Positions 2,427-56,270 of a stretch of DNA of 56,669 nt are shown here, piece by piece. The stretch comes from a virus. The notes beneath the pieces were generated by a model. That model was given only the letters and a program-made list of their open reading frames with translations. It had not been told where the DNA came from and did not search any database. Made by a program: the position numbers and the translations under genes. Location of the stretch: positions 1 through 56,669 of IMG/VR virus record IMGVR_UViG_3300008113_000379. The stretch is one strand, 5' to 3'. The first letter of the stretch is position 1, and the number at the start of each line of letters is the position of its first letter.

Positions 2427-2543
2427 ATGAACTATATTGAGTGGATAGAAAATACTTGGTTATATTTATTGCTTATGCTATGGTTCTCCGTCGTAGGATT
2501 CAGTTTAGGCCTATTTATAGGGTTTGCGGTTATCCTATTATAG
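2427..2543 (+). CDS. Small single-span membrane protein
   Basis: A 38-aa ORF begins M-N-Y-I-E-W and is mostly one hydrophobic helix (residues ~11-38) rich in Leu, Phe and Val. No ribosome-binding site is present, but a late-type box sits just upstream. It lies in the gap between a terminator and the peptidase gene. No family was recognised. Confidence 0.45.
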   Translation: MNYIEWIENTWLYLLLMLWFSVVGFSLGLFIGFAVILL

Positions 2544-2568
2544 TGTTATTCTGATAGCATCCTGCTAC

Positions 2569-2576
2569 AATAAATA
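2569..2576 (+). promoter_or_regulatory. Late-type promoter box (AATAAATA)
   Basis: The box ends four bases before the peptidase ATG at 2581, which has no Shine-Dalgarno sequence. This fits the leaderless late pattern seen elsewhere in the window. Confidence 0.55.
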
Positions 2577-2580
2577 TTCT

Positions 2581-3393
2581 ATGCGTAAAATTTTAATATC
2601 TTTATTATTCCTACCTTTAGTCTGTTTTGCACATCCTAATAGCGTAGTGTACAATGTAACAAATGATACCGTATTACATGGATCTTTGTACTGTGAAGAA
2701 GTTAGCATTGCTAGTATAAGCAAGTTAATGACTGTATACACAGTATTACAATATAATCAAAACATGGATGAGAAACTTACTGTCACTGGTAACAAGGTTG
2801 TAAATACTAAGTTACGCAAAGGAATGATCCTTGCTCGACAAGAATTGATTAATTTGGCGTTGGTCAGTAGTGACAACTTAGCCGCAATAACTCTGGCAGA
2901 AAATTTTCCAGGGGGAATGAATCATTTCATATATCATATGAATAACAATTCAAAAACTTTAGGTATGCATCAAACTGGATTTGTTGAACCGACTGGACTT
3001 AGCCCAATGAATCATAGCACAGTGGGTGATATAATAAAACTAACCAAAGCAGTAAGCGAATACACTATAGTACAGCACGCCGCACAAACACAACGTGTAG
3101 TATCACCAGTTGAACTATCAAAAAATAACAAAAAAACTAAAAAGAAAAAGAAAAGAAAAGCAGTCAAAGAACCTAAGGCACAAGTTGTTGCTGGTAATTC
3201 CACTAGTCGTTACTTTGGTCATGAAGGATTGATAACTATAAAGACTGGCTTTACAAATGCCGCAGGGTTTTGTATAACTATGCTATTGTATTCTAATAAT
3301 CAATTGTATAACATAACTGTATTAGGTGCACGAACAAAACAAGAACGTGAAAAATTAGTTAAACAAAGTTTAGCTAAAATTTATAACACATAA
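2581..3393 (+). CDS. Secreted D-alanyl-D-alanine carboxy-/endopeptidase (peptidase S11 type)
   Basis: A 270-aa penicillin-binding-protein-type peptidase. The start at 2581 gives a clean signal peptide (residues 1-17, hydrophobic core ending C-F-A), so the longer frame from 2524 is rejected. All three active-site motifs are present: S-I-S-K (residues 45-48), S-S-D-N near 97-100 and K-T-G-F near 224. The family trims or cleaves peptidoglycan peptides in the periplasm. An odd lysine-rich insertion (~20 residues, ~180-205) sits before the KTG strand. A role in wall remodelling or lysis is inferred. Confidence 0.88.
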   Translation: MRKILISLLFLPLVCFAHPNSVVYNVTNDTVLHGSLYCEEVSIASISKLMTVYTVLQYNQNMDEKLTVTGNKVVNTKLRKGMILARQELINLALVSSDNLAAITLAENFPGGMNHFIYHMNNNSKTLGMHQTGFVEPTGLSPMNHSTVGDIIKLTKAVSEYTIVQHAAQTQRVVSPVELSKNNKKTKKKKKRKAVKEPKAQVVAGNSTSRYFGHEGLITIKTGFTNAAGFCITMLLYSNNQLYNITVLGARTKQEREKLVKQSLAKIYNT

Positions 3394-19499: not shown

Positions 19500-19507
19500 T
19501 ATTTATC
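19500..19507 (-). promoter_or_regulatory. Late promoter box (GATAAATA)
   Basis: The box lies 17 bases before the fibre ATG at 19482; AAAGGATT sits between them. Confidence 0.7.
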
Positions 19508-20723
19508 AAGATAGGTTTAGATTTAAAATTCCGGTTCTAGTATTCAACGGGAAGGATCTAAGCACTGGGTAAAAAGGAGCTTCAAAACTCCCGCTTGGTC
19601 TTAAATTTACTGTTACATATTGAACTGGTATTGTTTTCCAACCTAAAGTTTGTGGTGTTCCGGAAGCTGTTATTCCTAAAACTTGATGCACCGTTCCACT
19701 TGCTTCCGGTACATAATATGAACTATCTGTTATACTGCTAGGTGTCACAAATGATACCGTATTTCCAGAAGTATTCATGAAGGTGATAGTAGTATCATCT
19801 CCATCTAGTGTTACAGTATTAGCAGTAATAGTGTCAGCGGTAACCACGTTTGCAGTAATTTCACCAGTAGATGTTAAATCTAGTGTATCTACTGTTGTAT
19901 TTGCTACCAATGTATCTGCTGTAATCGTACCAGATACAGAGAATGTACTAGGAATATCTACTGTTATGTTTCCGGTAGTTGTTACTGGACCGCCAGTAAC
20001 AGTTAATGTTGTACTGGTAATGTCGATTAAAGTGACAGTACCTTGATTTAAATTAATAGATGAAATTGTAATTTCACCTGTCGTACCACTCAAATCAATA
20101 CCAGTACCAGCATTCAATCTTGTGACACCAGTGTTTGTTATTTCTATGATACCGCTACTCGTTACGGGACTGTTGCTTACTAATAATCCGTCACCTACTG
20201 CTTGTATACCTACGCTAGTGACAGTACCTACACTAACTCCGTTTGCAATTGCAGTCACTCTGCCATAATTATCAACTGTCATTGTAGGAGCAATATATTC
20301 TCCTGCCGCATAGTTTCCACTTACCATTAATGGTAAGTCTACATTGATATTTCCTGCACTAACGATAGGTGTATTTGTTATTGATAATGTACTATTAGCA
20401 GATGATAACCCTACGCTAGTAACTCCTAAGTTACCGTTTCCAGATGCAGAAATTGTAATGTTTCCTGAAGTAGCAGATAGTGTAATCCCTGTACCAGCTG
20501 CCAAATTTAGCACACCTGTGTTGGTTATAGTAACTGCACCTGATGTACTATTTCCATAAGCACTAATCCCTACGCCTGAAGTGAATGTATTGTATGGACT
20601 GGAAAGACTGAACAATTGTGTGAAATTGTTCTGAACCTTGTTGAAAGCATCATACAGGCTATCACTCCCGGCCTGTTGATTCTGTGCCCCGATATTTATT
20701 GTCTGTTGTCCTGCTATAGCCAT
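19506..20723 (-). CDS. Tail-fibre protein
   Basis: A 405-aa fibre. The N-terminus (M-A-I-A-G-Q-Q-T-I-N-I-G, then Y-D-A-F-N-K-V-Q-N-N-F-T-Q-L-F) matches the attachment end of T4-like fibre proteins I recall. The middle is repeated G-T-G-I-T-L-S and V-T-S-V-G strands, a YadA-like or prism-like shaft. It has a late box and AGGAAAT upstream. It is the first structural gene after the Fe-S operon and could be reached by read-through. Confidence 0.82.
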   Translation of the reverse strand: MAIAGQQTINIGAQNQQAGSDSLYDAFNKVQNNFTQLFSLSSPYNTFTSGVGISAYGNSTSGAVTITNTGVLNLAAGTGITLSATSGNITISASGNGNLGVTSVGLSSANSTLSITNTPIVSAGNINVDLPLMVSGNYAAGEYIAPTMTVDNYGRVTAIANGVSVGTVTSVGIQAVGDGLLVSNSPVTSSGIIEITNTGVTRLNAGTGIDLSGTTGEITISSINLNQGTVTLIDITSTTLTVTGGPVTTTGNITVDIPSTFSVSGTITADTLVANTTVDTLDLTSTGEITANVVTADTITANTVTLDGDDTTITFMNTSGNTVSFVTPSSITDSSYYVPEASGTVHQVLGITASGTPQTLGWKTIPVQYVTVNLRPSGSFEAPFYPVLRSFPLNTRTGILNLNLS

Positions 20724-20740
20724 TATTATTTCCTATTATG

Positions 20741-20748
20741 TATTTATC
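20741..20748 (-). promoter_or_regulatory. Late promoter box (GATAAATA)
   Basis: It lies directly after the stop codon of the ErpA-type gene and 17 bases before the fibre ATG at 20723. Confidence 0.7.
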
Positions 20749-21039
20749 TCAAACAGCAAACGAACTCCCGCACCCGCAGGTACTAGTTGCTGAGGGGTTC
20801 TTTATTTTGAATTCTGCCCCCTGTAGATATTGAGCCGACATTGCGTCAACCAGGACACTTGCGGCACCTGCATCAAATTCAAAATCGTCCTCGTTTTTCA
20901 TCTCGTCTAATGTGAATCCATAGCTGAATCCTGAGCATCCGCCACCTTGAACAAACATACGTAATTTCATGTTGGGGTTGTTCTCTTCCGCTATAATATC
21001 TGCTATTTTGACACTTGCTGATTCTGTAATAGTTATCAT
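20749..21039 (-). CDS. erpA: ErpA-type A-type Fe-S carrier
   Basis: A 96-aa A-type carrier that accepts a [4Fe-4S] or [2Fe-2S] cluster from IscU and hands it to apo-enzymes. The three ligand cysteines are present: C35 in [13 protein letters not shown] and C88/C90 in T-C-G-C-G-S-S-F. The G-G-G-C-S-G-F-x-Y-G-F block and the A-T-S-T-C-G-C-G end follow ErpA rather than IscA. It is shorter than E. coli ErpA (114 aa), mainly at the N-terminus. It overlaps the end of iscA by four bases, so the two are co-translated. Confidence 0.9.
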
Positions 21040-21359
21040 ACTCTAAAACTTTCTCCGCATCCACAGCGGTCACGTTCATTCGGGTTACCAAATTCAAACC
21101 CTTCATTCAGTCCATTACGGACATAATCTACTGTCATTCCCTTTAAATATATATCATGTTTCTTATCCACTAATACACAAAAGTTAGGTTGAGCATAGTT
21201 AATAGTGGAAAAATCTGAGGTATACTCTTTGACGTATTCTAAAACATAAGCTAGTCCACTACACCCTGTAGTTTTTACCCCTATCTTTATACCAACATGA
21301 CTGGTAGAGTTCAACAGTTTTTCTATCTTCTCTGTGGCTTTGTTAGTGAATGTTATCAT
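21036..21359 (-). CDS. iscA: IscA, A-type Fe-S carrier
   Basis: A 107-aa, full-length IscA. C33 sits in [10 protein letters not shown] and C99/C101 in R-C-G-C-G-E-S-F, matching E. coli C35, C99 and C101. The [13 protein letters not shown] segment is typical of IscA. IscA binds iron or a cluster and supplies [4Fe-4S] targets. Its start lies 17 bases inside the iscU gene. Together with ErpA-type and IscU genes it forms a nearly complete scaffold-carrier set lacking the cysteine desulfurase IscS. Confidence 0.93.
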
Positions 21360-21726
21360 GTTTCTTTTTATAGTCAGCTACCGCGGCCTTGATGGCGTCT
21401 TCGGCGAGGATGGAACAATGAATTTTGACTGGTGGGAGAGCAAGTTCTTCAGCAATTTTGCTATTTCGTATGGATCCTGCTTCTTCAAGTGTTCTACCTT
21501 TGATCCATTCCGTAATGAGGCTAGAACTTGCGATTGCTGATCCACAGCCGTATGTTTTGAATTTTGCATCTATGATTACTCCATCCTCAACTTTAATTTG
21601 TAATTTCATTACATCACCGCATGCCGGTGCACCCACCATTCCTGTACCAATAGTATCGTCTATTTCAAATTTACCTACATTGCGTGGATTTTCATAATGG
21701 TCTATAACTTTATCTGAATATGCCAT
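21343..21726 (-). CDS. iscU: IscU, Fe-S cluster scaffold
   Basis: A 127-aa IscU with every functional residue visible: C36, D38, C61 and C104 (E. coli C37, D39, C63, C106), and the L-P-P-V-K chaperone-recognition motif at 97-101. IscU receives sulfur from the cysteine desulfurase IscS and iron to build [2Fe-2S] clusters; the HscA chaperone binds LPPVK to release them. The phage protein should therefore work with host IscS and host or phage Hsp70 (a DnaK gene lies at 46443). It is preceded by SOD and GNAT genes in the same direction with overlaps or 3-4-base gaps. Confidence 0.95.
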   Translation of the reverse strand: MAYSDKVIDHYENPRNVGKFEIDDTIGTGMVGAPACGDVMKLQIKVEDGVIIDAKFKTYGCGSAIASSSLITEWIKGRTLEEAGSIRNSKIAEELALPPVKIHCSILAEDAIKAAVADYKKKHDNIH

Positions 21727-21729
21727 ATA

Positions 21730-22074
21730 TTAACTCTCTTCCCAAACACGAACATCTTCACCGCGATGTTTATTCCAGAAGCCTGCACCTGCATCAGTTT
21801 GGTCCCAGCTTCTAACAATAGTATAGCCAAGTTTTTTGACGTAATCGTACATGACCTTAGCAATACCTTGCCTTTGATATTTCTCATTGACCCATAAATC
21901 TTGTGGGTCTAGTTCCTTGTCATCCCCTATATAGAATGTAACGTGACCTAGTACGTTATTTCCCCAGTCATCAAGGGCATCAACCATTAACTCATAGTTG
22001 TTTTTGCTTACTTTTAAAGTTAGACCCTGATAATCAACGGTCTTGGCTTCAATGATAAATTCGCTAGCCCTCAT
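21730..22074 (-). CDS. GNAT acetyltransferase with capsid-targeting-like N-terminus
   Basis: A 114-aa GNAT-fold protein. D-L-W-V-N-E-K-Y-Q-R-Q-G-I-A-K-V-M (residues ~63-79) includes the acetyl-CoA pyrophosphate loop Q-R-Q-G-I-A. The substrate is unknown. The N-terminus M-R-A-S-E-F-I-I-E-A resembles T4 internal-protein targeting peptides, cut after I-x-E. That would make it a virion-packaged enzyme (inference). It overlaps the 59-aa gene by ATGA and is three bases from iscU. Confidence 0.8.
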   Translation of the reverse strand: MRASEFIIEAKTVDYQGLTLKVSKNNYELMVDALDDWGNNVLGHVTFYIGDDKELDPQDLWVNEKYQRQGIAKVMYDYVKKLGYTIVRSWDQTDAGAGFWNKHRGEDVRVWEES

Positions 22075-22250
22075 GATTTTGATTTTTCAACTGATTGCAC
22101 ATTATCTTTGCCAAACATTTTCCCCAATAACATTTTTGCATGACTTGGAGAATCAGCATGAATTATTGTTTTTACTGTTGAACCCTCAACTTTTACAGTG
22201 GCGTTATATTTGTTAAGAGAAGATTCTGTTATAAATTCTCCGGCTCTCAT
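22071..22250 (-). CDS. Small protein with capsid-targeting-like N-terminus
   Basis: A 59-aa protein beginning M-R-A-G-E-F-I-T-E-S, nearly the same start as the GNAT enzyme that follows. The rest is one alpha/beta unit (V-K-T-I-I-H-A-D-S-P-S-H-A-K-M-L-L) ending in a charged tail. It overlaps SOD and GNAT by ATGA at both ends, so it is translated as part of that operon. Function unknown; packaging into the head is a possibility. Confidence 0.75.
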   Translation of the reverse strand: MRAGEFITESSLNKYNATVKVEGSTVKTIIHADSPSHAKMLLGKMFGKDNVQSVEKSKS

Positions 22251-22798
22251 AGATTCTTCCCCCAGCGTGTGTTAATATGACCCCAGTTCATTATCTTCCA
22301 AATATTTTCTAGGTATTGTTTCTTGTTTGCTTGATAGTCTAATGCCCAAGCATGTTCCCACCAGTCAATTAATATCAATATATCATCACGAACCTCGTGG
22401 TTCACGATAGTTTTAATTTCCCCGTTGTATGACATGTAAACCCAACCACTACCTTGTATCTTCATGGCTTCTAGTTTGAATTGTTCTTTAAAATCTTTCC
22501 ACCACCCATATCTACGTTTGATTAAATTTAGTACAGGGCCGTTGGGTGTGTTATTATCTCTAGGTTCACGGAACTGACTGAAATATATGTTATGCAGTAT
22601 TGCCCCTGCATAATTAAAATCTGTATCACCTTCATCGTTATTGTATCGTCTAGCATAACCATGGGCTAAATCACCATAGTGATACTCCATAGTCGCTTTG
22701 CTTAATACTGGATTGAGGTTGGAAAGGTCATAGGATAGTTTATCTATCTCTATGTTCCTAGTATTTGCTTCGGTAATTCTCTCTATAATATCATACAT
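22247..22798 (-). CDS. Fe/Mn superoxide dismutase with N-terminal extension
   Basis: A 183-aa SOD of the Fe/Mn family, converting superoxide to H2O2 and O2. The metal ligands can be placed: H40 (E-Y-H-Y-G), H69 (I-L-H-N-I-Y-F), D145 and H149 (D-W-W-E-H-A-W). D-Y-Q-A-N-K-K-Q-Y-L follows as in true SODs. The first ~18 residues (M-Y-D-I-I-E-R-I-T-E-A) precede the normal SOD start and look like a T4-type targeting peptide with an I-T-E|A cut site. A late box ends seven bases before the ATG and there is no ribosome site. It heads the operon running to the ErpA-type gene. Confidence 0.88.
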   Translation of the reverse strand: MYDIIERITEANTRNIEIDKLSYDLSNLNPVLSKATMEYHYGDLAHGYARRYNNDEGDTDFNYAGAILHNIYFSQFREPRDNNTPNGPVLNLIKRRYGWWKDFKEQFKLEAMKIQGSGWVYMSYNGEIKTIVNHEVRDDILILIDWWEHAWALDYQANKKQYLENIWKIMNWGHINTRWGKNL

Positions 22799-22805
22799 TA
22801 TAGAG

Positions 22806-22813
22806 TATTTATC
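22806..22813 (-). promoter_or_regulatory. Late promoter box (GATAAATA) heading the SOD/Fe-S operon
   Basis: Seven bases separate the box from the SOD ATG at 22798. The next five genes overlap or nearly touch, so this box probably drives SOD through the ErpA-type gene. Confidence 0.75.
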
Positions 22814-23576: not shown

Positions 23577-24410
23577 TCATACTTCATTGTTGACAACGCT
23601 TGTTCGCAACTCTTTTGGTCGTTGAACGTCAGTTCTATTCTTCCTGGTTGATCCTGCGGGTTGTTCATGTGTACCGCTATCAATATCATTATCCACATTG
23701 TCACTCTCCTTAATCCAAGTAACTATTTCCCAACGTCCATTGTGATGTTCTACTAGTGCTGTGCATGATTCAACCCAGTCGCCATCATTCTGTATGTGTC
23801 CACAAATGATACCATCAAAGCCACGCTTTTTACAATAGTTGGCTAAATTTTCTTCAAACTTAAAAATAAAATCTACTGCTTTTTTAACTCTGTGCTTAAG
23901 ATACTTGCTAAGGCTAAAGTACCCAAAACCCATACGGCGACGAATCCAATTAAATTTATTGTTGAGGCTAAGTATGAAATCATATGCTTTATCTCCTAAA
24001 AATGATAACCAGGGTGCTAATCTTGTAATGCCATCAAACATGTCACCATGTACAACTAGATAGTGTTTACCATCAGCACCTATATGCTCTGTTTGATTGT
24101 GTATTTCTATTAGACCAAAACTGAAACCATATGGTATCATTGGTCTTAAGAATTCATCGTGATTGCCTGCAATGAATATTACTTTAGTGCCACGCTTGGC
24201 ATGACCTAACACTCTGCGTACTACGTTAGTGTGCGATTGTTTCCAACGCCATTTGTTTTGTTGTATTTTCCATGCATCAATTATATCGCCGACTAGATAT
24301 AATGTATCGCATGAATTGTGCTTGAGGAAGTTGTTTAACTTCTCTGCCTGACAATCTTTTGTACCTAAGTGTACATCACTAATGAAAATACTGCGGTAAG
24401 TTTTTTGCAT
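23577..24410 (-). CDS. LpxH-type metallophosphatase with altered metal motif
   Basis: A 277-aa protein resembling the LpxH2/UDP-2,3-diacylglucosamine-diphosphatase-like group, which acts in lipid A synthesis. It has S-D-V-H-L-G, V-G-D-I-I-D, G-N-H-D and V-H-G-D-M-F-D in order. The last motif is abnormal: C-G-H-I-Q-N-D-G-D-W-V-E-S-C (residues ~207-220) where relatives have G-H-x-H, a ~12-residue loop, then G-D-W-V-E-S-C. So one metal His is replaced and the loop is gone. Activity may be lost or changed. The ~30-residue C-tail is low-complexity. A late box lies seven bases before the ATG. Confidence 0.8.
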   Translation of the reverse strand: MQKTYRSIFISDVHLGTKDCQAEKLNNFLKHNSCDTLYLVGDIIDAWKIQQNKWRWKQSHTNVVRRVLGHAKRGTKVIFIAGNHDEFLRPMIPYGFSFGLIEIHNQTEHIGADGKHYLVVHGDMFDGITRLAPWLSFLGDKAYDFILSLNNKFNWIRRRMGFGYFSLSKYLKHRVKKAVDFIFKFEENLANYCKKRGFDGIICGHIQNDGDWVESCTALVEHHNGRWEIVTWIKESDNVDNDIDSGTHEQPAGSTRKNRTDVQRPKELRTSVVNNEV

Positions 24411-24453: not shown

Positions 24454-24669
24454 TTATCGTCTGCGGGTGATTCTACCTTTAGTTAGGTCATAGGGGCTGA
24501 ATTCTACTTCAACAGTATCGCCCAATAAAATTTTAATATCATGTTTACGCATACGGCCTGATATATAGCCTATAACAGTTGGACCTGCTTGCATTGCTAC
24601 TTTAAACATAGCATTGGGTAATACGTCTATTACCTTACCGTCCATCTTTATACCTTCTTCTTTTGCCAT
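24454..24669 (-). CDS. infA: Translation initiation factor IF-1
   Basis: A 71-aa S1-fold protein that is clearly IF-1: [21 protein letters not shown] and [13 protein letters not shown] all match the bacterial family. IF-1 binds the 30S A site and tunes start-codon selection with IF-2 and IF-3. The length equals the host form (72 aa). AAAGGAG precedes the ATG. It ends a three-gene unit driven from the promoter at 25384-25412. It may change which messages the host ribosome prefers (inference). Confidence 0.96.
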
Positions 24670-38151: not shown

Positions 38152-38994
38152 TCATATTTCCAAATACTTCAACTGAAATACATCAGCATTTTCATCGTGA
38201 CCGGCATAACCACGAGGGTTACACACAATCCGTGTAGTGCCAATCATATAGTCAAAAGGTTCATGTGTGTGACCATGAGTCCAAAGCACAATCTCCGGGT
38301 GATCCAAAATGAATTCGCTCAAATCAGTGTGATAACCACCATTCATCAAATGGTCACCTCTATATCTGTCATGGATACTTTGATGACTTGGTGTATGATG
38401 ACCGACAAACACTACCTTTTTGTCCTTCATATCAGGCAATACAGCCTTTAAGTATGACATAGTTTGATGGTGACGATACATTGAATGTGCAGGACGTAAC
38501 TTAGTAAATCCTTTATCATCATTGCGAATGATACGATAATCATTCATCATATCAGTTAGTGCATGTAATGTTAATGGATCACCCTTATTACAATCAGTCC
38601 ACAATGTGGCACCAATAAAGGACACTTCATTGATAACCTTAATATCGTTTTCCAAAAAGTAAACATTGGGAAACCTAGCACATTCATCACGCAGGTGTTG
38701 TAAACTAGCTACCCAACGACCATGATAAAATTCATGGTTACCTGCAATGTAAATTACATGCGGGAATTGAAAACTACAACGACTAAGAAAGTCACGGAAT
38801 CGTAGTGCAGTCTCTTGTCTGCGCCCTAAGTTAGGGATGTTAACTGGATCATTTGGATGCACAGGCGGATGATTATGTAGATCCTCTGCAATCATAATAT
38901 CACCGCTGAGGATCAGGACCTCTGCACCCTCTTCATTCTTGAGGATGATGTCCTGAAACTCTAAATGCAAATCACTGCATAGTGCTATTTTCAT
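38152..38994 (-). CDS. Calcineurin-like metallophosphoesterase
   Basis: A 280-aa protein with an intact active site: S-D-L-H-L-E-F (residues ~7-13), L-S-G-D-I, G-N-H-E-F-Y near 87, V-G-H-H-T-P-S near 200 and H-G-H-T-H near 240. It is larger than the 1785-2387 enzyme and belongs to the C-terminal-extended phage type. Substrate unknown. It is the third of four such folds in the window and closes a run of small overlapping minus-strand genes. Confidence 0.9.
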   Translation of the reverse strand: MKIALCSDLHLEFQDIILKNEEGAEVLILSGDIMIAEDLHNHPPVHPNDPVNIPNLGRRQETALRFRDFLSRCSFQFPHVIYIAGNHEFYHGRWVASLQHLRDECARFPNVYFLENDIKVINEVSFIGATLWTDCNKGDPLTLHALTDMMNDYRIIRNDDKGFTKLRPAHSMYRHHQTMSYLKAVLPDMKDKKVVFVGHHTPSHQSIHDRYRGDHLMNGGYHTDLSEFILDHPEIVLWTHGHTHEPFDYMIGTTRIVCNPRGYAGHDENADVFQLKYLEI

Positions 38995-42161: not shown

Positions 42162-42190
42162 ATTATATACCCAAAACTATTTATTGTCAA
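42162..42190 (-). promoter_or_regulatory. Sigma-70 promoter, repeated cassette (minus strand)
   Basis: TTGACA (42185-42190), 17 bases and TATAAT (42162-42167). It overlaps the last codons of clpP. Confidence 0.92.
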
Positions 42191-42774
42191 CCGCGTTTTG
42201 TAACTATTTCGTCTACAAGGCCATAGTCAAGTGCTTGTTGGGCACTCATAAAATTGTCACGTTCCATGTCGGCCTGTAGTACATCAAAAGTTTTACCTTT
42301 TGAATTGTGCTTGACATAGATTTCTGTGAGGTTTTTCTTCATAGCCATGATTTCGTTGACCTGAATAAGCATATCAGTTGCTTGACCTCTTGCACCACCT
42401 GAGGGCTGATGAATCATGTGGCGTGCGTTTGGTAGCATAAAACGCTTACCGGGCGCACCTGCTTGTGCTAATAGACTACCCATGCTACATGCCTGTCCCA
42501 TAACAATCGTATGAATATCTGGCTTTACAAACTGCATACAATCATAGATTGCCATACCAGCAGTTACACTACCACCGGGGCTATTGATATAAATGCTGAT
42601 ATCCTTATCAGCCTCAGATTCTAAAAACAATAATTGTGCTACAATCAAGTTTGCCATGCTATCATGGACTTCTCCCTCAAGCAAAATCACGCGGTCCCTA
42701 AGCAAACGACTATAAATATCATAGCTACGCTCACCCTTCGCTGTTTGCTCTAAAACAATTGGCACTAAACTCAT
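42187..42774 (-). CDS. clpP: ClpP serine protease subunit
   Basis: A 195-aa ClpP. The start at 42774 follows TAAGGA by six bases. The catalytic residues are present: S97 in G-Q-A-C-S-M-G-S, H122 in M-I-H-Q-P-S and the Asp in E-R-D near 173. It begins M-S-L-V-P-I-V, which is where mature host ClpP begins, so no propeptide needs removal. ClpP forms the barrel that degrades proteins unfolded by ClpX or ClpA. With ClpX (48644) and ClpS (45563) it completes a phage-encoded protease system. Confidence 0.96.
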
Positions 42775-42797
42775 ATACATCCTTATAATAAATTTGC

Positions 42798-46442: not shown

Positions 46443-48320
46443 TTAGGCTGTTTCTTTAACTTCGGCATCAACCACAGTATCATCTTTGTTCTGTGATTTC
46501 TGTTCTTCTTCAAGTTTAACTTTAGTAATAGGACCTATCACATCGTATAGTTCCTTAACACCAGTTTCAATCTTTTCTTTATCGTCACCTACGATAGCGG
46601 TATCAAGATTTGTGATAGCGGCTTCAATCTTTTCTTTTTCTTCGTCAGTGATTTTGTCACTATACTTGGTAAAGTCATTGCGGAACCCGTTAAGAGTGGA
46701 TTCTGCCACATTACGTGTTTGAATCAATTCAACTATTTTCTTATCTGCCTCAGCATTTTCTTCTGCCTCACTAACCATCTTTTGAATTTCTGCTTCTGTC
46801 AATCCACTATCTGATTTGATGGTAATCTTATTCTCTTTTCCAGTACCTTTGTCTTTAGCACTGATATGCATAATACCATTTGCGTCAATATCAAATGTAA
46901 CTTCAACTTGAGGCATACCTCTTGGCGCTGGTGCAATACCTTCTAAGTTAAACTCGCCTAAATGTTTATTGTGTGTAAACAACTCACGCTCACCTTGACC
47001 AACTTTAATAGTAACTGCCGGTTGATTGTCTTGTGCAGTACTAAATGTTTGACTAGCCTTAGTTGGAATAGTTGTATTCTTTTGGATAACTTTAGTGAAT
47101 ACACCACCTAGTGTTTCAATACCTAAACTTAATGGTGTAACATCAAGTAACAATACATCTGTTCTATCACCTGCTAACACAGCACCTTGTACTGCGGCAC
47201 CAACTGCAACTGCTTCATCTGGATTTACATCCTTACGAGGTGCTTTACCAAACAATTTTTCAACTGCTTCTTGTACTTTAGGCATGCGTGTCATGCCACC
47301 AACTAGAATAACTTCGTCAATATCACTACTTGTAACTCCAGCATCACGCATGGCGATTTCGCAAGGTTTAATACTGCGCTGGATTAGTTCATCAACTAGG
47401 CTTTCTAGCTTGGCACGACTCAGTTTGATGTTCATGTGCTTAGGACCATTTGCATCTGCTGTAATATAAGGCAAATTAACATCGGTCTGGCTACTACTAC
47501 TCAATTCTATTTTAGCTTTTTCACTAGATTCTTTTAATCGTTGTAATGCTAATACATCTTTGGTTAAATCAACACCAGTATCCTTTTTGAATTCTTCTAC
47601 TAAGAAATCCATGATTCGTTGGTCAAAATCTTCACCACCTAGGAATGTATCACCATTTGTAGATAATACTTCGATTTGCTTATCACCATCAACGTCTGCT
47701 AACTCAATGATTGATACGTCAAACGTACCACCGCCTAGGTCATATACAGCAATTTTACGGTCACGCTTTTCCTGTTTATCTACACCATACGCCAGTGCGG
47801 CTGCTGTAGGTTCGTTAATGATACGCAACACTTCTAGTCCAGCGATACGGCCGGCATCTTTGGTCGCCTGTCTTTGACTATCATTAAAATAAGCGGGAAC
47901 AGTAATAACTGCTTGTGTAACTTCATGACCTAGATAATCTTCCGCAGTCTTTTTCATTTTGCGTAAGACTTCTGCTGACACTTGCGGTGGTGCCAATTTT
48001 TTATCTTGTGCTTGAATCCAAGCATCACCATTTTCATTTTCAATGATACTATATGGCATCAAATCAATATCTTTTTGCACAGCCTGTTCATTGAACTTAC
48101 GTCCAATTAAACGTTTGCTTGCATAAATTGTGTTCTTTGGATTTGTAACTGCTTGGCGTTTGGCGCTTGCACCAACCAAGATTTCATCGTTTGCGTAGGC
48201 AACGATTGAGGGTGTTGTTCTAGCACCTTCTGAATTTTCAATTACTTTGGGATTGCCATTCTCAATAATGGCTACGCATGAATTTGTGGTACCCAAGTCG
48301 ATACCTATGACTTTGCTCAT
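46443..48320 (-). CDS. dnaK: DnaK (Hsp70 chaperone)
   Basis: A 625-aa full-length Hsp70. [12 protein letters not shown] starts the ATPase domain; [23 protein letters not shown] and V-G-G-M-T-R-M-P mark its later motifs. The linker [13 protein letters not shown] precedes the substrate domain, and the tail ends V-D-A-E-V-K-E-T-A. It is DnaK rather than HscA. DnaJ and GrpE would come from the host; neither is in the window. It has its own promoter at 48377-48405. Confidence 0.97.
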
Positions 48321-48425: not shown

Positions 48426-48647
48426 TTAATACATTTTTGGGGGAAGTTGCTGGTCACGCAAATACTTTTTCCAACGGCGCTTAGCCTGACCATGGGCTAA
48501 TTTTCTTTTTACTGTGGGTTTTACAAATTCTTGACGGTCACGGACCTCTTGAAGAAGGCCAGTCTCACTTACCTTTTTCTTTAGTTTACGCAATGCTTTT
48601 TCAACGTTTCCGTCATGCACTTGAATTTTTCTTCCTTTTGGCATCAT
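48426..48647 (-). CDS. rpsU: Ribosomal protein bS21
   Basis: A 73-aa bS21: V-E-K-A-L-R-K-L-K-K-K-V-S-E-T-G, then R-K-L-A-H-G-Q-A-K-R-R-W-K-K. bS21 sits on the 30S platform beside the anti-Shine-Dalgarno and helps initiation. Phage bS21 genes are known from metagenomic phages and probably exchange with the host copy. It overlaps the clpX stop by four bases, an arrangement suggesting joint expression of both. Confidence 0.95.
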   Translation of the reverse strand: MMPKGRKIQVHDGNVEKALRKLKKKVSETGLLQEVRDRQEFVKPTVKRKLAHGQAKRRWKKYLRDQQLPPKMY

Positions 48648-49843
48648 ATGATAGGTTTAGGGTTAATTACTTGTTCCCTATCTATATTTAGTAGTTTCAC
48701 CTTGTTCTTGCGGTATTTTTTAGTATGATACATATGACACATCAATACACGTTCAATCTCAGTGTGTAATCCACGTGCGCCTGTTTTTAACGTTAATGTG
48801 TTCTCAGCAATTTGATCCAGTGCTTCTGTAGTGAATGTTAGTTCAATTTCGTCTAATTTTAACAAATATTTGTACTGACTGACGTAATTGTTCTTAACGT
48901 CTGTTAAAATTTTGATTAGTTGTTCTTTGTTTAATTCTTGGATACTGACTGTAGTAGTAAATCTACCTATAAATTCAGGAATCATTCCATATTTGGTCAG
49001 GTCATCTGGACTTACTTTAGTTAAATCACCTTCAACTTTGTTATCCTTGATATCGGCACCGAATCCAATGCTGGTTCCATTAGTACGTTTTGCGATAACA
49101 TCTTTGAGACCCACGAATGCACCACCGGCAATGAATAGAATGTTTTTTGTATCAATTTCATTCATGTCATTACCAGGATGTTTTCTTCCGCCCTGACTAG
49201 AAATTCTACATATAGTACCTTCAACTAACTTGAGTAACGCTTGTTGTACACCTTCACCTGATACATCACGTGTGATACTGGTGCTCTCACCTTTACGTGC
49301 AATTTTATCAATTTCATCAATAAAAATTATTCCACGTTCCGCAAGTTGTTTGTCACCATTGGCAGCATTTACTAGCATATTAATCATTGATTCAACGTCA
49401 TCACCAACATACCCTGCCTCAGTTAAACTTGTGGCATCAGCAACAATAAAGGGCACTTTGAGATACTTAGCCGCAGTCTTAGCAAGCAATGTTTTACCAC
49501 TACCTGTGGGGCCTACAATAAGTACGTTGCCCTTTTGAATCTCTAAGTCTTTGGGAGGATTGTTGATCCTTTTATAGTGATTGGCAATCGCCACACTAAG
49601 AACCATTTTAGCATCATCTTGACCAATTACATGCTGGTCAAGATAATCTTTAATTGATTCAGGATCAAACTCGGGTTGAATGTCATCATTATGTTCTGAT
49701 ATTTCATCAATAATTAAGTCTTGGCATAACTCTACGCAATCACTGCATATAGCTACTGTTCCTCCTACGACTAATTTTTTGACGCCATCTTTGTGTGCCC
49801 CACAAAAACTGCAATGATTGATTTGTTTAGTTTCTTCGGTCAT
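48644..49843 (-). CDS. clpX: ClpX unfoldase
   Basis: A 399-aa ClpX. An N-terminal zinc-binding domain (C-S-F-C-G-A-H ... C-S-D-C-V, residues ~9-37) precedes an AAA+ core with Walker A G-P-T-G-S-G-K-T near 110, pore loop G-Y-V-G-D-D near 148, Walker B I-I-F-I-D-E-I-D and Q-G-G-R-K-H. The I-G-F docking tripeptide for ClpP is present (T-S-I-G-F-G-A-D-I). It can thus unfold substrates into ClpP. Slightly shorter than E. coli ClpX (424 aa). It has no ribosome site and is read from the promoter at 49878. Confidence 0.97.
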
Positions 49844-55303: not shown

Positions 55304-55479
55304 TACACATCTCCGAAAATATAAGCTGCCATTTTGCGCTTAGTAGTTTCTTCATCCTTCATAGCACAGTCAAAACAAACTTCTTCGTTATTAGGACCAT
55401 AAGGACGACATTCATCAATCACCCCGCACATTTGACATGCTTGGGGTAATTCTTCCTGTATGATACCTAAGCCACTCAT
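55303..55479 (-). CDS. Small zinc-binding protein
   Basis: A 58-aa protein: C-Q-M-C and C-F-D-C form a four-Cys zinc site. M-S-G-L-G-I-I-Q-E-E-L-P-Q-A starts it. The sequence resembles a small conserved phage family of unknown function. Start and stop overlap its neighbours. Confidence 0.75.
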   Translation of the reverse strand: MSGLGIIQEELPQACQMCGVIDECRPYGPNNEEVCFDCAMKDEETTKRKMAAYIFGDV

Positions 55480-56270
55480 TTAGGCATCATTAATGCATTG
55501 AAGTTGCTAGGAACAACAATGGTCTGCACTTGACCGTTCTTGATACCTTCACTGATGTTCAACATAGCCTGTGCCTGCATGAACGCAATACTTGCACCTG
55601 AGTTATTAGCCAATGCTGCCATTCTGCGACTTTCTGCTTCGGCAGTCTTAACTTCAACTTCCTTTTGCTTTAATTCGTTTTTACTGCGAACCAGTGCATT
55701 AGCTGATTCAACAACTGAGTCAGCTGGAACAACATTACGGATCAACACTTGGCTAATCATAATAGTACCGTCCAGTTTTTCTTCAGCCAAGTTACGAACG
55801 ATTTCGTCCTGAATAAACTTTTCCATTTCACCTCGATTGTCTGCCATGTCCAATGCTTCATACTTACGTGCTGCCTTGTAGATAGCATTACGAGCATTTT
55901 GAACAATGTAGTTGTACATCACATAAGTGTCACCCTTAAAGTCAGCGTGGAAAGCCTTGTTCTTTGTAGCGTACAGTTCTGACACTTGTTGTGGGTTGAT
56001 GTTGTAAACAACCACAGCATCCAAGTCTTTCATGGTGCTATTGTCTTTAGCTACAGGAGTCATATTCTCCAAAACCACATTAACATCTTTGATAGGGAAT
56101 GTCAAAACATCACCAATTAGGACCTGATTGAACGAGCCCGGAAGCAATTCACCAGGTTGTACTTGTTTGTCAAAGCCAACACGAACACCAACTTCACCAG
56201 TTTCGATACGGGTACAACCTGTAGCAAGAACTGCGGCGGCAAGAATAGAGAGGGTAAAAATACGTTTCAT
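55476..56270 (-). CDS. SPFH/prohibitin-family lipoprotein
   Basis: A 264-aa protein with lipobox L-A-T-G-C-T (Cys ~19). The SPFH domain runs from ~25 to ~195 (G-E-V-G-V-R-V-G-F, V-V-V-Y-N-I-N-P near 85). A coiled coil (~195-235) and the end N-F-N-A-L-M-M-P-K follow. Members scaffold membrane complexes and often guard proteases such as FtsH. In the phage it may alter host envelope or proteolysis. AAAAGGTATT lies upstream. Confidence 0.85.
   Translation of the reverse strand: MKRIFTLSILAAAVLATGCTRIETGEVGVRVGFDKQVQPGELLPGSFNQVLIGDVLTFPIKDVNVVLENMTPVAKDNSTMKDLDAVVVYNINPQQVSELYATKNKAFHADFKGDTYVMYNYIVQNARNAIYKAARKYEALDMADNRGEMEKFIQDEIVRNLAEEKLDGTIMISQVLIRNVVPADSVVESANALVRSKNELKQKEVEVKTAEAESRRMAALANNSGASIAFMQAQAMLNISEGIKNGQVQTIVVPSNFNALMMPK

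Follow-up and report, generated by a model that had tools for sequence, protein, structure and literature searches.

Superoxide dismutase and iron-sulfur assembly genes in one late-type gene block of a T4-like phage: a predicted head cargo beside a predicted cluster supply

Why would a bacteriophage keep the gene of a superoxide dismutase (SOD) in one block with genes for the assembly of iron-sulfur (Fe-S) clusters? The question is raised by the IMG/VR virus record IMGVR_UViG_3300008113_000379, a stretch of 56,669 bases that was analysed as a whole and is referred to here as the window. The list of its open reading frames (ORFs) places six genes on the minus strand at 20749-22798: SOD, a protein of 59 residues (p59), a GNAT acetyltransferase domain protein, the scaffold IscU and two A-type carriers, one of the IscA and one of the ErpA type. 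As originally predicted, the genes overlap or nearly touch, with overlaps of 4, 4, 17 and 4 nucleotides (nt) and a gap of 3 nt between GNAT and IscU. The further proposal that all six form one Fe-S repair set was not sustained, as a targeting-like N-terminus is found on SOD, p59 and GNAT only and 39 of 46 viral SOD loci have no IscU nearby.

We favour, with moderate confidence, the reading that a T4-like phage transcribes the block late, as an accessory operon whose products are of two kinds. By means of propeptides of 9-10 residues, SOD, p59 and GNAT would be loaded into the prohead core; a gp21-type protease would cut them after Glu9 or Glu10, and they would enter the next cell together with the ejected DNA. 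There SOD would remove superoxide as infection begins, and GNAT and p59 would act on host targets. IscU and the two carriers would be made late in the infected cell, drawing on host sulfur, and would build and pass on Fe-S clusters with the help of host IscS and HscBA; the recipients may be phage enzymes, such as radical SAM proteins, or host enzymes. We infer this division of labor because the signal is absent from the Isc genes and because most SOD loci lack IscU.

The N-terminal signal of SOD, p59 and GNAT

The three proteins start with MYDIIERITEANT (SOD), MRAGEFITESS (p59) and MRASEFIIEAK (GNAT), and the T4 internal head proteins IPII and IPIII with MKTYQEFIAEA. According to the available part of a review of the T4 head, 10 N-terminal residues of IPIII are enough for targeting, its processing depends on residues 8 and 10, and the protease gp21 cuts after Glu in L/I-x-E (PMC9026906). 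The propeptide-like segments are 10 (SOD), 9 (p59) and 9 (GNAT) residues long and each ends with [I/L]-x-E, the cut-site residues of SOD being I8-x-E10-A11. Thus they resemble the T4 head proteins IPI, IPII, IPIII and Alt in having a short N-terminal peptide with [I/L]-x-E before A/S. p59 and GNAT share the EFI-x-E-A core with IPII and IPIII, and keep E-F-I-x-E one residue earlier than IPIII does. IscU, IscA and ErpA start at the place usual for their families and have no N-terminal signal. In the AlphaFold model of SOD (pLDDT 89.2) residues 1-12 are disordered and the confident part follows, and the best PDB match begins at residue 17.

The predicted cut site is conserved. Before L21, E10 is the sole invariant residue in 22 viral SODs, which were chosen by hand from the extension-bearing loci, with 27 of 49 loci left out (L085, L086, L089, L090, L092, L093, L097, L101, L103, L106, L107, L110, L111, L114, L116-L118 and L120-L129). 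In 12 distinct close relatives residue 8 is I or L, residue 9 is variable, residue 10 is E and residue 11 is A or S. Altogether [I/L]-x-E precedes the fold in 42 of the 49 SOD loci, window included; many of these loci are near-copies of one another, and L122 (IMEK) was counted as having no site.

The signal is also enriched among other proteins of these viruses. Of 2895 proteins, 14 have the strict motif [ED]F[IL]xE[AS] starting at positions 3-10, where 0.37 would be expected (38-fold), and it is seen 7 times deeper inside the proteins of this set. The set consists of non-redundant gene calls taken from the window, the viral loci and three long contigs; the gene calls behind it, behind the site count in the 49 SOD loci and behind the start counts, locus counts and gene comparisons below were made with a simple script. 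Three SODs and three GNAT homologues, one of them from the window, are among the 14, and the bodies behind the motif differ (SOD, p59, GNAT, a 428-residue protein of L085, a 559-residue protein of L095 and others). Looser N-terminal motifs are enriched 2.5- and 2.2-fold in the viral set and are not enriched in 793 bacterial proteins (2 against 6.39 and 14 against 15.57 expected). The strict motif is absent from the bacterial proteins both inside and at the N-terminus, and this control informs on the looser motifs only. p59 and GNAT have seven of their first nine residues in common with three synonymous codon differences, which argues for selection at the protein level. MRAxEFIxE or related N-termini were also seen on proteins of unknown or DUF (domain of unknown function) type at L085:4263-5549, L095:4861-6540, L097:4788-6545 and L146:15001-16849; these are candidates for injected head proteins.

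The prohead protease gp21, on which the predicted trimming would depend, was found in some of the records searched and not in the window or its nearest relatives. Two long records, G001 (170,986 bases, carrying the locus L094) and G002 (200,604 bases, carrying L113), share many genes in ordered blocks, and both encode a protein of 1193 residues, which we take to be the tail sheath. gp21 and gp23 scored over the cut-off in two of 23 records, G002 and G020. The SOD of G002, of the same type as that of the window, starts with MYNFIKTIAEG and thus stands in one record with gp21 and gp23. The capsid protein of G002 has LIES at 39-42, and the protein next to its gp23, which starts with MDAFKQLVES, is probably the scaffold. 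The gp21 of G020 itself has LSES at 7-10. The late-type boxes of the window and the gp21 of a related record are further likenesses to T4; the T4 head proteins differ in that the cargo here would be SOD, GNAT and a 59-residue protein, and in that the packaging is predicted from sequence.

The closest functional parallel is found in chlorovirus PBCV-1, where a Cu/Zn SOD is encoded by a late gene and packaged in the virion (PMC7019647). What it shares with the window is a viral SOD; the enzyme is unrelated, the virus infects algae, and the available part of that source describes no capsid-targeting peptide (PMC7019647). Within the Fe/Mn family, the SOD of Pseudomonas phage PA5oct (EST35_0261) is 43.4% identical to that of the window and has an N-terminal extension as well, starting with MNDSIKKYISIAEA and containing ISIAEA. 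PA5oct differs in being a jumbo phage of the Arenbergviridae, and none of the 12 annotated features surrounding its SOD is a gene for Fe-S assembly. Its SOD record bears a note of detection by mass spectrometry (MS); in a 50-kb stretch the note stands on 28 of 74 features, namely 17 structural or baseplate proteins, nine enzymes, proteases or MazG, and two hypothetical proteins, one of which is the SOD.

Late promoter, distribution and the Fe-S genes

One late box stands just before SOD, as the original prediction had it. The 9-mer GATAAATAC occurs four times in the window against 0.95 expected, and at least four copies were seen in two of 100 shuffles. The ATAAATA core is not enriched over the window as a whole (29 against 25.99 expected; 31 of 100 shuffles). 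Called starts are preceded by it at a distance of 3-25 nt in 11 of 112 cases in the window (0.66 expected), 30 of 278 in G001 (1.1), 13 of 169 in G006 (0.75) and 16 of 190 in G002 (0.28). T4-type late transcription is supported by this placement in all four records.

How common is the combination of genes? The viral IscU loci examined are the best 80 of at least 600 stretches, so that their shares are not those of all phages, and loci cut by contig ends were counted as lacking the neighboring genes. Within 5 kb of IscU an A-type carrier is present in 75 of the 80, two carriers in seven and SOD in two. Starting from SOD relatives (46 loci), IscU is found within 5 kb in seven; the 39 without it, some of them cut by contig ends, speak against a six-gene repair set. 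IscU and two carriers beside SOD were found in six of the 46, L088-L090 and L091-L093. As identities and spacing are equal within L088-L090 and within L091-L093, these suggest two lineages, or three with the window. The order of the genes is variable: SOD comes immediately before IscU, IscA and ErpA in L088-L090, and in L091-L093 an 846-residue protein with a GNAT-type start lies behind it, IscU coming further on. Hence the combination of IscU, two carriers and SOD is rare in the loci surveyed, and the original expectation that a scaffold with two carriers and SOD would be unusual agrees with the window and two other lineages. The database search that it called for gave both parts of this picture: IscU with A-type carriers is common and the addition of SOD is rare. 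One apparent IscU neighborhood, L002 (CAKLQF020000009.1, Acinetobacter phage MD-2021a), was rejected; the presence of a whole bacterial isc operon along with housekeeping genes shows it to be a bacterial contig in a phage collection.

IscU with A-type carriers in phages is already published: phage iscU with such carriers was reported by Nishimura et al. (2017; PMC5332604), and iscU and erpA are described in HMO-2011-type phages (PMC9038755), as far as the available parts of these sources go. The arrangement there is alike in that IscS is absent and in that T4-like environmental genomes and others are concerned. Unlike here, no SOD is named in the available text of Nishimura et al. (2017; PMC5332604), where "superoxide" occurs 0 times. 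No open-access paper was found that brings SOD and IscU together in the setting of phage genomes and auxiliary metabolic genes. Compared with the bacterial isc operon, the window retains IscU followed by IscA, whereas IscS was not found and ErpA, SOD, GNAT and p59 take the place of HscB, HscA and Fdx.

Comparisons with Pfam, NCBIfam and the PDB bear out the identities of SOD, GNAT, IscU and the two A-type carriers. IscU scores 175.8 bits with Pfam NifU_N and passes TIGR01999 (210.9; cut-off 192.4), and the residue check bears out the prediction that all three cysteines, the Asp and LPPVK are kept. The two A-type carriers that had been predicted are likewise confirmed: with Fe-S_biosyn scores of 62.3 and 42.1, both over the Pfam cut-off, the IscA-type protein passes the subfamily model TIGR00049 (96.8; cut-off 58.8) and stays below the IscA equivalog TIGR02011 (111.5; cut-off 150.6), and the ErpA-type protein passes PRK13623 (119.3; cut-off 117). 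The prediction of three cysteines in each carrier stood for ErpA, but in an alignment with HI1723 its 96-residue chain misses 11 residues before the C-terminal part. The segment is present in 27 of 28 other distinct viral ErpA-type sequences, the match of L102 breaking off there. In the window gene 33 nt are absent between two short, GC-rich direct repeats found in L091. Either a true deletion by slippage or an error of assembly may account for this, and the carrier may be impaired or fail to fold; a count of two intact carriers needs that reservation. The absence of IscS was also predicted, and no aminotransferase of this type (PF00266) was found in any of 15 records, window included, the 14 control genomes all being positive.

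The LPPVK motif of IscU binds an Hsp70 in bacteria. The window encodes a full-length DnaK at 46443-48320 (-; PRK00290, 975.7 bits, below all three HscA cut-offs), and an Hsp70 is present in nine of 15 related records. The possibility that the phage DnaK is an HscA was rejected, since it passes DnaK but not HscA models. A partnership of phage Hsp70 and phage IscU, which occur in the same genomes, is possible and would be of interest.

IscU also bears on the origin of the block. Bacterial contamination or a chimeric assembly might be suspected, as IscU is 79-86% identical to its 80 best bacterial matches. The explanation is very unlikely and was rejected, because similar blocks with the same gene order and borders (GT2-SOD and ErpA-tail) recur in other viral contigs; moreover, among 150 IscUs viral and bacterial sequences separate in a tree that needs four changes of the viral label against 50.4 in shuffles. 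By this tree, which is weak since it has few columns, most viral IscUs appear to form groups of their own, and a recent transfer from host to phage is not supported. The window IscU falls in an all-viral group of 50 rows (support 89/88, not starred). The IscUs of L025, L040, L091 and L075 lie on the bacterial side, those of the nearest gene blocks (L040, L091) as a small viral clade, and four bacterial rows, L207 and three Photobacterium, lie on the viral side, so that IscU was probably exchanged more than once. Burkholderiales and further betaproteobacteria account for most of the 80 bacterial matches, and three Photobacterium are among the rest; this hints at the host but is no proof. In another record (that of L029) an IscU match with one in-frame TGA lies at G019:C1:138800-139171.

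Competing readings and their weight

Several observations weigh against packaged SOD, p59 and GNAT with a separate Fe-S supply. In T4 targeting runs mainly via residues 4 and 7 of IPIII (Y and F), and SOD differs in having I and R there. Besides E10, residues Y2, D3, E6 and E17 are invariant in the 12 close SOD relatives. The SODs of L124-L129 and of Vibrio phage 2.275.O have no extension and L122 is ambiguous. The strict motif was defined after the window had been inspected, and two of its 14 matches are the window's own. gp21 and gp23 were not found in 21 of 23 records, including the window and its nearest relatives, which are fragments; G001 has, by its matched genes, no stretch corresponding to the gp21-gp23 region of G002, and in the nearest relatives the negative probably reflects missing sequence. 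No [I/L]-x-E-[ASG] site was seen within residues 1-90 of the G020 capsid protein. The MS note of PA5oct also marks ribonucleotide reductase, thymidylate synthase, ligase and ClpP; as it is not specific for virion proteins, it was downgraded as proof of packaging. The Fe-S half is weakened by the ErpA deletion.

Could the six genes instead act together in the producing cell, with SOD holding superoxide down and IscU, IscA and ErpA restoring Fe-S clusters at a late stage of infection? The tight block behind one late box and the company of SOD with IscU and two carriers in L088-L093 would fit, as would the invariance in the 22 sequences of SOD positions H40, H69, D145 and H149, presumably the four metal ligands (three His, one Asp), and the kept residues of IscU. 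We regard such joint repair as unlikely: SOD, p59 and GNAT carry an extra N-terminal signal that the Isc proteins do not have, SOD mostly occurs without IscU within 5 kb, and ErpA is shortened. That the peptide is a common tag serving some other purpose, such as binding to the core with no later ejection, recognition by the phage protease ClpXP or a signal at the level of translation, is about equally improbable. The phage does encode ClpX and ClpP, and the peptide is also found on proteins with LysM and chitinase-like domains, which might be lysis enzymes; against this, the [I/L]-x-E-[A/S] site matches that of gp21, and the agreement of p59 and GNAT despite synonymous differences points to selection on the protein. 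A main role of the Isc proteins in maturing the phage's own Fe-S enzymes, and not in repairing those of the host, is compatible with head cargo and quite possible, if slightly doubtful. Radical SAM proteins score over the cut-off in seven of 10 IscU-bearing records against one of five without IscU, a suggestive association, and Nishimura et al. (2017; PMC5332604) describe, in the available part, phages with A-type carriers or IscU and many radical SAM genes. Yet the records differ in length, the near-copies G006, G013 and G014 are in the counts, and no radical SAM gene was found in the window; radical SAM enzymes are plausible clients.

For the wider proposal, that a group of uncultured T4-like phages packs SOD, GNAT and other proteins by T4-type targeting and injects them with the DNA, the same operon supplying Fe-S scaffold and carriers late, the chances appear evenly balanced. 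The new element is the predicted capsid-targeted head cargo of a new kind, SOD. No open-access full text was found that contains both "superoxide dismutase" and "capsid targeting sequence", and in a wider open-access search only a chlorovirus review, among the matches listed, contained "superoxide dismutase". If the proposal holds, bacteriophages would deliver an antioxidant enzyme with the genome, as the PBCV-1 particle carries SOD, the first minutes of infection would pass under phage-supplied antioxidant protection, and viral SOD genes would be read as injected protection and not as metabolism of the infected cell. The MRAxEFIxE[A/S] tag would then make much of the injected proteome of these phages readable from sequence and provide a simple test by which virion-delivered proteins could be recognised in uncultured T4-like phages. 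The Fe-S part speaks for scaffold and carrier without cysteine desulfurase as a common phage arrangement, one that depends on host sulfur.

Features of the block and other genes of the window

The features of the block are collected in Table 1.

Table 1. Predicted features of the gene block and of its borders, in window positions
Feature	Position	Strand	Basis or remark
T4-type late promoter box GATAAATAC	22805..22813	-	ATAAATA core 7 nt before SOD start
Fe/Mn superoxide dismutase, 183 aa, N-terminal extension	22247..22798	-	Pfam, structure model, PDB match
SOD residues 1-10, MYDIIERITE, capsid-targeting-like propeptide, predicted cut after Glu10	22769..22798	-	Alignment
p59, 59-aa protein	22071..22250	-	ORF; body related to part of a 340-aa G001 protein
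p59 residues 1-9, MRAGEFITE, capsid-targeting-like propeptide	22224..22250	-	Motif
GNAT acetyltransferase domain protein, 114 aa	21730..22074	-	Pfam; relatives are the N-terminal part of 704-846-aa proteins
GNAT residues 1-9, MRASEFIIE, capsid-targeting-like propeptide	22048..22074	-	Motif
IscU scaffold, 127 aa, ordinary N-terminus	21343..21726	-	Pfam, TIGR01999, key residues
IscA-type A-type carrier, 107 aa	21036..21359	-	Pfam, TIGR00049
ErpA-type A-type carrier, 96 aa, 11-residue in-frame deletion	20749..21039	-	PRK13623, alignments
Next late box GATAAATAC, before the following tail-like gene (19506-20723)	20740..20748	-	

SOD scores over the Pfam cut-offs with both of its domains (Sod_Fe_C 72.9 bits, Sod_Fe_N 32.8 bits). 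Its metal preference was not inferred from residues, given the warning in the available part of PMC10172142 that homology alone does not give the metal of an SOD. SOD matches under phage names comprise 27 records, some of them bacterial contigs, and the public phage records with SOD include Pseudomonas jumbo phages and a Vibrio phage. In PHROGs no family was found for SOD, p59 or GNAT, and p59 has none in Pfam or NCBIfam either. GNAT is over the Pfam cut-off with Acetyltransf_1 (28.7 bits). A capsid-targeting-like start together with a GNAT-like domain was also seen in longer proteins at L087:8549-10780 (743 residues), L091:8549-11089 (846 residues) and L094:8549-10663 (704 residues); those of L087 and L094 have LysM and GH19 (chitinase-class) domains over the cut-off and the third has not.

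Elsewhere in the window ClpX (48644-49843, -), ClpP (42187-42780, -), IF-1 (24454-24669, -) and an SPFH/Band 7 protein (55476-56270, -) are encoded, as are an S11 peptidase of the D-alanyl-D-alanine carboxypeptidase type (2524-3393, +) and three calcineurin-like phosphoesterases (1785-2387, +; 23577-24410, -; 38152-38994, -).

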